From Rhizobiales bacterium GAS188 (GTDB taxonomy: Bacteria > Pseudomonadota > Alphaproteobacteria > Rhizobiales > Beijerinckiaceae), in NCBI GenBank assembly GCA_900104855.1, contig FNSS01000001.1, positions 7,077,001-7,141,000 of the forward strand: 64,000 nt of DNA, given 5' to 3'. The translations under genes and the position numbers were made by a program. Every line of letters starts with the position of its first letter. Position 1 is the stretch's first letter. The notes beneath the pieces were generated by a model that saw nothing but the letters and a program-made list of their open reading frames with translations, was not told where the DNA came from and did not search any database. Shown piece after piece: positions 19,401-43,831 of the stretch.

Positions 19401-19544
19401 ACCCAGCCTTGGCATTGGCTGCGGGTTGTTCCCGGCCGACAACCGGCCTATCCTGACTGCAAATCTCCGCAACCGCCCGCATCGTGAGGCGACGGCGAGG
19501 GCACATCACGATGTGTCGGTTGCTTCTTGCAACGGAGGCACATC

Positions 19545-20042
19545 ATGGCCATCGCACCGACACTTCAAAGATATCTCGATCAGCGCGTCACCTATGAGGT
19601 GATCCCGCATAAACCGACCCTGTCGTCGACACGCACTGCCGAAACCTGCCACATCTCGGGCGATGCGCTCGCCAAGGGCATCGTGCTGCGCCTCGATCGC
19701 GGCTACATGCTCGCAGTGCTTCCGGCGTCGCACCATATCCGCATGCCGGAGCTGAAGCTGCGGCTCGGCGACGATGTCGAGCTCGCCAGCGAAGACGAGG
19801 CCGCGCGCCTGTTCAAGGACTGCACTCGCGGCGCCATTCCGGCGGTCGGCGACTGCTATTCACTCGATGTCATCGTCGATGACAGCATCGAGAAACAGCC
19901 CGAGATCTATATGGAGGGCGGCGATCACGCGACATTGGTCCATATGGCCTATGCGCAGTTCGCCCGGCTGACCGGAGATGCGCTGCACGGGCGGTTCAGC
20001 ACCCATGATCGGGATCATCGACCGGACGATCGCGGCCGATAG
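19545..20042 (+). CDS. YbaK/EbsC family aminoacyl-tRNA deacylase-like protein
   Basis: 165 residues from ATG 19545, with ACGGAGG upstream. Residues 10-140 match the YbaK/ProX editing domain: YEVIPHKPTLSSTRTAETCHISGDALAKGIVLR, then VLPASHHIRMPELK and TRGAIPAVG. The family hydrolyses mischarged tRNAs such as Cys-tRNA(Pro) in trans. The conserved lysine in ALAKGIVL is present. The gene stands alone between the transporter block and the convergent slipin operon. Specificity cannot be read from the sequence. Confidence 0.85.
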   Translation: MAIAPTLQRYLDQRVTYEVIPHKPTLSSTRTAETCHISGDALAKGIVLRLDRGYMLAVLPASHHIRMPELKLRLGDDVELASEDEAARLFKDCTRGAIPAVGDCYSLDVIVDDSIEKQPEIYMEGGDHATLVHMAYAQFARLTGDALHGRFSTHDRDHRPDDRGR

Positions 20043-42265: not shown

Positions 42266-43201
42266 TTACATCTGCGCCGCCGGGCCGCTCGCCACCAGCT
42301 CCTTGTAGAACTCCGCCGTCTGCGTGAACCAGAGATGGCGGGCTTCCATATGGGCGATGTCGGCCGTGCGGGTCGGCAGGCGAAGCACATCGATCAGCGC
42401 CTCGATCTCGGCGCGCGCGGAGGCCTGCGACGCCGACAGCGCGCCCTTGTCGGTGACCTCCTCGATGGAATCGAGCACGGTGAGGCCGACCGGGAACAGC
42501 TCGCGGAAGATGACCCGGTCGCCGAAGCCGTCGGCCATGCGGAACTGCAGCTCGGGCGACAGGCGCCCGAGGCTGCCGGCCACTTGCCGCTGGTTGTTCG
42601 ACTGCAGCGAGGCGATGCGATTGCGCACCACCACCCAGTCGATCAGCCCGGCATCGGCGAGCCGGCGCTGCCGGCGCGCCTCGAGGACCAGGGCGGCATA
42701 TTGAGCCGTGGCGCCGCGCTCGCGCCGGTCATTGTGGACCCGCGCCAGCACGTCCACATCGATGAAGGAATCGTTCATCGGCGTCACCAGCGTATCGGCG
42801 AGCGAATGAGCGAGCCGCATGAGGTAGCTGTCGCTCGCCGGCGTGTCGATGACCACGAATTCGAAGGCATGCTCGACGCGCGCGATGGCCTCCGCGAATG
42901 AGGTGAACTCGACGATCTCGTTCTCGCCGGCGCTGTCCTTGCCGCCGCGCTCGAGCGCATGATGGAAAGGCAGCTCGATCGGGCGGTTGGCGTTGGTGCC
43001 CCAGGATTGGCGATTCTCCAGGAAGCGCGTGAGCGTGCGCTGGCGCGTGTCGAGATCGATCGAGGCGACGCGATAGCCGGCCTTCAAGAGGGCGATCACG
43101 ATATGAATCGAGAGCGTGGACTTGCCCGTGCCGCCTTTCTCATTGCCGACCACGATCACATGGGCGCTTCTGAGATCGGGTGGATCGCTCGCGGACACCA
43201 T
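42266..43201 (-). CDS. mipZ: MipZ, ParA-like division-site positioning ATPase
   Basis: 311 residues. The deviant Walker A is GNEKGGTGKST (residues 18-28), followed by ASIDLDTRQRTLTRFLENR, an MipZ hallmark. VVIDTPASDSYLMRLAHSLADTLVTPMNDSFIDVDVL and VVVRNRIASLQSNN follow. MipZ forms a bipolar gradient by way of ParB and inhibits FtsZ polymerisation away from mid-cell. It is confined to alphaproteobacteria. Five 18-bp tandem repeats, each with a GANTC site, end nine bases before its start codon. yidD lies directly upstream on the same strand. Confidence 0.93.
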   Translation of the reverse strand: MVSASDPPDLRSAHVIVVGNEKGGTGKSTLSIHIVIALLKAGYRVASIDLDTRQRTLTRFLENRQSWGTNANRPIELPFHHALERGGKDSAGENEIVEFTSFAEAIARVEHAFEFVVIDTPASDSYLMRLAHSLADTLVTPMNDSFIDVDVLARVHNDRRERGATAQYAALVLEARRQRRLADAGLIDWVVVRNRIASLQSNNQRQVAGSLGRLSPELQFRMADGFGDRVIFRELFPVGLTVLDSIEEVTDKGALSASQASARAEIEALIDVLRLPTRTADIAHMEARHLWFTQTAEFYKELVASGPAAQM

Positions 43202-43209
43202 CGTCGATT

Positions 43210-43299
43210 ACGAATCACTCATTGGGAACGAATCACGTGTTGGATCCGAATCACTTATTGGACACGAATCACTTTTTGGACACGAATCACTTGGGCTGA
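43210..43299. repeat. five tandem 18-bp repeats carrying GANTC sites, upstream of mipZ
   Basis: CGAATCAC recurs at 43211, 43229, 43247, 43265 and 43283, exactly 18 bases apart; the consensus unit is ACGAATCACTTATTGGAC. Each unit holds GAATC, the GANTC target of CcrM. The array fills the gap between yidD (stop at 43287-43289, inside the last unit) and mipZ (start 43201). In the yidD frame each full unit brings an in-frame TGA, so it is not coding for a yidD tail. Confidence 0.9.
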
Positions 43300-43589
43300 T
43301 CGGGTGTGGAGAGCTTATCGTCCTCGCGCGGCATGCGCCACACGCCGTAGCGCCAGGGGCGCCACCAGCGCGCTCCAGCCGGCGGGATCGACGGCACCGG
43401 ATCATAACCATGCCCTCCGAAAGGCCCGCAACGGCAAAAGCGCGCCAAGGCCATGATCGAGCCTATCCGGAAGCCGTGCAGGCGCAAGGCGTCCAGCGCA
43501 TATTCCGAGCAGGTCGGCAAATAGCGGCATTGGCGTCCGAGCAGCATCGACAGGCTGTGGCGATAGACCTGAACCATGACAATCGCCAT
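43287..43589 (-). CDS. yidD: membrane protein insertion efficiency factor YidD
   Basis: 100 residues from ATG 43589. The YidD core is clear: VQVYRHSLSMLLGRQCRYLPTCSEYALDALRLHGFRIGSIMALARFCRCGPFGGHGYDPVP. The CRYLPTCSEYA and CRCGPFGGHGYDPVP motifs hold the conserved cysteines. YidD assists YidC-mediated insertion. It usually lies between rnpA and yidC, but here it precedes mipZ, away from rpmH/rnpA. Confidence 0.93.
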   Translation of the reverse strand: MAIVMVQVYRHSLSMLLGRQCRYLPTCSEYALDALRLHGFRIGSIMALARFCRCGPFGGHGYDPVPSIPPAGARWWRPWRYGVWRMPREDDKLSTPDQPK

Positions 43590-43831
43590 GCGGGCAGGCA
43601 GCGAAGGCGGCCGCGATGCCGCAGCCTTTCCCCTCACATCATCGTGCGATGAGGCGCACATGTCGAGATTGCCAAAGCTTCACCAATTCTCCATGCGCCC
43701 ATGAGGTGCGATCGACGATCAACCTCTATATAGGGGCGAAGCGGCACTCGTGCAGCGAATCCGAAATTCGCATCACCTTGGGCGGCATTGGCTTTGCATC
43801 CACCTTTCTTCGAGCCTCGCGGGAGCCGAGC

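Follow-up and report, generated by a model that had tools for sequence, protein, structure and literature searches.

Introduction

In E. coli, the pap switch is a regulatory cluster of Dam sites. The array of CcrM sites described here, which lies before the division gene mipZ, resembles that switch in the idea of several methylation sites gathered in one regulatory region; unlike the switch, the array gives, at the level of sequence, no sign of a binding protein, of switching or of conservation. A second comparison is with bacterial short intergenic tandem repeats (minisatellite or VNTR-type), which we take to be the class to which the array belongs. Like these repeats, it consists of short units arranged head to tail, is lineage-specific, and is one of many unrelated loci in its genome, often at gene junctions.

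The closest described promoter is that of mipZ in Caulobacter crescentus. As set out in the accessible portions of two reports, Caulobacter mipZ is a target of both CcrM and GcrA; its promoter, which carries two juxtaposed GAnTC sites and a conserved CGACTC, binds GcrA and is crippled by mutation of GANTC (PMC3667746, PMC3708114). Other sources, likewise available in part, state that most GANTC sites are methylated in Caulobacter (PMC3973325) and that the CcrM/GcrA network is rewired even between close relatives (PMC7987155).

We analysed a stretch of 64,000 nucleotides from Rhizobiales bacterium GAS188 (hereafter the window). As in C. crescentus, GANTC sites lie close to the start of mipZ in a genome that encodes both ccrM and gcrA. 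In contrast to the two juxtaposed sites of Caulobacter, this locus has five GAATC sites in an 18-bp array that comes from the stop region of yidD and is not conserved in the genus. A literature search, within the portions of the sources it returned, found no description of such an array.

Results

The array fills the gap between yidD and mipZ

A preliminary description of the window had reported five tandem 18-bp repeats with GANTC sites just upstream of mipZ, and this is confirmed. CGAATCAC starts at window positions 43211, 43229, 43247, 43265 and 43283, in steps of exactly 18 bp, and the five copies span 43211 to 43290, filling the 85-bp gap between yidD and mipZ. The sites read GATTC on the minus strand and GAATC on the plus strand. 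The features of the junction, with the repeat units delimited from the sequence, are:

43287 to 43661, minus strand: yidD, membrane protein insertion efficiency factor (PF01809, 83 bits; TIGR00278, 67 bits), ending K-stop within repeat unit 1
43276 to 43293, minus strand: repeat unit 1, mipZ-distal, which includes the final Lys codon of yidD and its TGA stop, with GATTC at 43284-43288; the probable ancestral copy, from the yidD stop frame in this genome and in its relatives
43258 to 43275, minus strand: repeat unit 2, with GATTC at 43266-43270
43240 to 43257, minus strand: repeat unit 3, with GATTC at 43248-43252
43222 to 43239, minus strand: repeat unit 4, with GATTC at 43230-43234
43204 to 43221, minus strand: repeat unit 5, mipZ-proximal and, by column counts, the most diverged, with GATTC at 43212-43216
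42266 to 43201, minus strand: mipZ, division-plane ATPase (PF09140, 298 bits)

The five full minus-strand units occupy 43204-43293, slightly more than the preliminary description had indicated, and read, in minus-strand order, CAAGTGATTCGTGTCCAA, AAAGTGATTCGTGTCCAA, TAAGTGATTCGGATCCAA, CACGTGATTCGTTCCCAA and TGAGTGATTCGTAATCGA. Tandem Repeats Finder (TRF) places the array at 43210-43292, with a period of 18, 4.6 copies, 83% matches and a score of 110. The repeated core of the coding strand, AAGTGATTCG, opens with the last codon and the stop of yidD (AAG TGA). The GANTC sites of the array exist because a TGA stop followed by TTC reads GATTC; 24 of the 991 TGA stops in our sample read GANTC through the bases that follow them. 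An 8-bp core, GTGATTCG, is unchanged in all five copies, and the 13 changes all fall within the other 10 columns. This invariance has a p of 0.0065 on the five full units, a span picked after the array had been seen, versus 0.095 on the TRF span, on which the mipZ array ranks second among all 41 arrays of the census described below.

No RNA structure was detected in the array (z 0.72), and a simple consensus scan found neither a sigma-70-like site nor a terminator there. The suggestion that the sites lie on alternating faces of the helix does not hold: at 10.5 bp per turn, each 18-bp step rotates them by about 257 degrees. In unit 5, 10 bp separate the nearest GATTC from the mipZ ATG, and inspection by eye found no AGGAGG-like ribosome site before that ATG; a leaderless mipZ start near the proximal GATTC is therefore conceivable.

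The identification of mipZ is clear, as it is by far the strongest of the 10 loci in its genome above the Pfam cut-off (the runner-up scores 41 bits). By sequence, the closest mipZ loci in the public genome set come from records named Hyphomicrobiales, Beijerinckiaceae, Methylobacteriaceae and Rhodoblastus. At a cut-off of E 1e-60, MipZ was matched in only 26 of 119 family genomes, this one included; in the others MipZ may have been lost, replaced or become more diverged.

The junction in related genomes

Two genomes of the same genus, G001 and G003, also have yidD directly before mipZ; a third, G002, has no mipZ match and so falls outside the comparison. The gene yidD ends in AAG TGA in the window and in G001, and in AAG TAA in G003. 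Since this Lys-stop ending is common to all three, unit 1 is yidD's own end. From the yidD stop to the mipZ ATG there are 85 bp in the window, 30 bp in G001 and 29 bp in G003, a difference between close relatives of the kind that minisatellites display. The excess of 55–56 bp amounts to about three units, and the same interval holds five GANTC sites in the window and none in either relative. The arrangement of yidD beside mipZ was seen in 4 of 36 loci scanned (at least 60% identity, duplicates counted, many of them with only ~1.5 kb of upstream sequence). These represent three genomes, all of the same genus. Two loci, L002 and L084, are by coordinates one place in G003.

The preliminary description had named absence of the array from all relatives as an outcome that would refute its reading, and within the genomes covered this is what was seen. 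Neither same-genus genome with a mipZ match has the array, and the 90-bp array, when searched by BLAST against 397 genomes of the order, matched its own genome only (0 of the 396 others). On these results, we rejected a conserved mipZ promoter array. An origin from an ancestral GANTC of the mipZ promoter was likewise rejected, the junction of the genus relatives having none and the core being the yidD stop.

Because yidD of the relatives also ends in Lys-stop, with a shorter gap and with neither array nor GANTC, we attribute the array to lineage-specific tandem copying of the end of yidD, an origin which is well supported. An 18-bp stretch (AAG TGA TTC G...) that covers the last Lys codon of yidD, the TGA stop and the bases that follow would have been multiplied in tandem until there were five copies; slipped-strand or unequal repair is the probable mechanism. 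The genome itself measures 9.09 Mb, against 4.7–4.9 Mb for the three same-genus relatives G001-G003, all of them fragmented assemblies.

CcrM, GcrA and the distribution of GANTC

The lack of ccrM had been named in advance as an outcome contrary to a regulatory reading; the gene is present. The genome has one RAMA-domain match (63.4 bits, at C1:3998220), and the protein matches the CcrM structure 6pbd at E 6e-154. GcrA is encoded as well (158.8 bits; structure 7ye1, E 7.5e-33), and a second match to its family is weak (39.9 bits). By analogy with Caulobacter, the five sites of the array are probably methylated by CcrM.

An expectation of about one GANTC in 300 bases, as given in the preliminary description, agrees with base composition (1 per 310 bp) but not with the actual genome, in which the sites are depleted (1251 in 864 kb, or 1 per 691 bp). 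Noncoding DNA is denser, at 1 per 376 and 1 per 342 bp in two samples. Depletion overall with higher density in noncoding DNA fits what the accessible part of one report describes for Alphaproteobacteria with CcrM (PMC3973325). At the mean rate, five independent GANTC sites so close together would be expected ~0.06 times in 9.09 Mb. However, these sites arose as copies of a single unit, so what matters is the frequency with which arrays of this kind form, which is high in this genome.

In order to compare mipZ loci, we took a set of 105, which excluded one locus without an N-terminus (L107), and removed 12 without a usable N-terminal anchor and 6 duplicates. The remaining 87 comprise the window, 29 others at 60% identity or more and 57 that are more distant. 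The 100 bp upstream of the start contain GANTC in 19 of the 29 others, versus 255 of 1327 genes of our own genome (P 6.6e-8, uncorrected for kinship and with our own genome as the yardstick, from which the GANTC density of relatives differs: 1 per 472 in G012 and 1 per 1333 in G016). Counted with the window, these upstream stretches of mipZ have 4.9 GANTC per kb, versus 2.1 per kb in the rest of the mipZ loci. Relatives beyond the genus often have such a site, which in several of the closer loci takes the form of one TGATTCG ahead of the ATG. Among the more distant loci the proportion is 13/57, which is near background. As for the two genus relatives, the 100 bp before mipZ contain no GANTC in G001 and one GAGTC in G003, inside the end of yidD. 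Upstream of ftsZ, the other Caulobacter target, 250 bp of our own genome hold no GANTC. GcrA targets vary among species, according to the part of the report available, so that co-targeting of ftsZ is no strict requirement (PMC7987155).

Other tandem arrays in this genome

We took a census of arrays in 80 stretches of 20 kb (L126-L165 and L226-L265) and the window, together 1.664 Mb of the same genome. The stretches come from across contig C1, apart from one on C2, and C3 contributed none. Two of them were positioned over ccrM and gcrA. Noncoding DNA was called by our own codon-usage script, not by a published gene finder; the script missed yidD in the window, so that "noncoding" takes in some real short genes. 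The census yielded 41 noncoding arrays with a period of 14–19 bp and at least 2.8 copies (23 and 18 in two separate samples), which, if the sample is representative, extrapolates to ~220 genome-wide. Among the arrays read, the units are unrelated in sequence. Array density was 26.6 per Mb in our own genome (first sample), 6.6 in G001 and 12.5 in G012; in 100 kb from each of four further genomes, it was 10 per Mb (one array) in G103 and 0 in G016, G054 and G023.

Of the 41 arrays, 16 touch a gene start or stop; random placement in noncoding DNA gave 8.1 (sd 2.6, maximum 20, 300 draws). Seventeen arrays lie no more than 50 bp from a start (random maximum 20), and 19 no more than 50 bp from a stop (random maximum 17). 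The extremes of the random placements reach or pass some of these observed counts, which we counted against reading the mipZ array as a by-product.

Units with GANTC number 6 of 41, the mipZ array included, versus 1.8 expected (P 0.008). A GANTC pair at the array period occurs in 5/23 arrays of the first sample but in 0/18 of the second, a count that leaves out one array of the second sample (L253) listed under the doubled period of 32; with the two samples so different, we set enrichment of GANTC aside as a sign of function. Evenly spaced GANTC arrays do occur elsewhere: five sites at 15 bp in L156, four at 17 in L136, four at 16 in L253 and three at 15 in L127. Their neighbours encode an ABC transporter (L156), a 2-hydroxyacid dehydrogenase and a GntR-type regulator (L136), an HGSNAT-type acyltransferase and a DUF1993 protein (L253), and a GFO/IDH/MocA oxidoreductase (L127); Pfam matches of the scanned genes gave no division function beside any of the four.

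One of these, L136:3479-3547, is a junction array built like that of mipZ, in which a TGA stop and TTC form GATTC, in four copies at 17 bp. Its junction found no real match in relatives, and a search with the flank of the L156 array matched ABC paralogues. The array at L253:17515-17597 has a 16-bp unit with GAGTC and CTTG between the DUF1993 and HGSNAT-type genes, and it is missing from the corresponding junction in all three genus relatives, where the sequence was read directly.

Origin and possible role of the array

These data suggest that the array is most likely a by-product: we think it probable that the yidD/mipZ junction was amplified in tandem within this lineage, giving one of the many short noncoding arrays of this genome, and that the array has no dedicated function. 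If so, tandem copying of the end of a gene can yield, as a by-product, an eye-catching array with the look of a designed regulatory element. Possibly, the copies were later co-opted. Having arisen by tandem copying, they would now form a CcrM/GcrA promoter element at which GcrA lands on several sites and so couples the timing of mipZ transcription to replication; the site nearest the ATG, 10 bp away from it, would sit at the promoter or at the start of a leaderless mRNA. We regard this as rather unlikely. The genome encodes ccrM and gcrA, and the Caulobacter promoter binds GcrA and fails when its GANTC is mutated, as the accessible text has it (PMC3667746, PMC3708114), but ftsZ lacks an upstream GANTC in our own genome, and a simple consensus scan found no sigma-70-like site in the array. 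GANTC precedes mipZ in 19/29 other loci (several of them with one TGATTCG ahead of the ATG) versus 255/1327 own genes; however, the junctions of both same-genus relatives have no GANTC, G001 has none across the whole 100 bp, and only 13/57 distant loci have one. The core is invariant, yet similar GANTC arrays adjoin other genes. A present regulatory role is possible but unsupported by the closest relatives, and the interpretation given in the preliminary description is, as judged from sequence comparison, partly supported. Co-opted copies would form a simple natural experiment on the number of methylated GANTC sites that GcrA requires, and on the way in which targets join the CcrM/GcrA network. 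It seems to us distinctly unlikely that tandem copying at junctions turns stop-codon sequences (TGA+NTC) into CcrM-site arrays and that the one at mipZ has been retained as a GcrA promoter with five sites and timing by methylation; if true, this would be a route by which a division gene comes under new epigenetic control in a single step, within one genus.

Two other explanations were weighed against a by-product of copying. The exact spacing and the invariant 8-mer could mean that the array binds some other protein, as iterons do, with GANTC incidental, or, given that mipZ has by eye no obvious ribosome site, that it is a spacer which sets translational coupling of yidD and mipZ. We give this very little credence: in 864 kb, GTGATTCG or its complement was counted 9 times, with the array accounting for 5 of these, which gives no sign of a regulon, and arrays of different sequence share the same build. 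With only four copies elsewhere in those 864 kb, a regulon of GTGATTCG sites was rejected. An assembly or sequencing artefact, to which tandem repeats are prone and which would account for an array found in one genome only (BLAST, 397 order genomes), is scarcely credible when all five copies differ (13 changed cells), the 9.09-Mb genome lies in 3 contigs and is listed as 100% complete, and it contains many other arrays.

Further features of the repeats

Unlike generic minisatellites or VNTRs, the arrays of this genome have units of 14–19 bp, often touch stop or start codons and are enriched in CAAG: CAAG or CTTG occurs in 21/41 units, versus a local rate of 0.163. CAAG was also found in 19/47 two-copy arrays and 18/59 coding arrays, and in 1/4, 3/14 and 0/1 arrays of relatives. 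ATG lies in the unit of 8 of the 18 arrays within 60 bp of a gene start. The abundance of junction arrays, together with the CAAG enrichment, may be a more interesting lead than the mipZ array itself.

Repeats of other kinds were also seen. Two places ~2.2 Mb apart (L136:18417 and L150:11244) share a matching flank with three GAATC sites at 23-bp steps, and represent a dispersed repeat that carries a GANTC cluster. Noncoding runs of 7-bp repeats (CTCACTC, TAGTGAA and GAGTAGT), in up to 12.7 copies, occupy L230:12373-12547 and 19505-19646.
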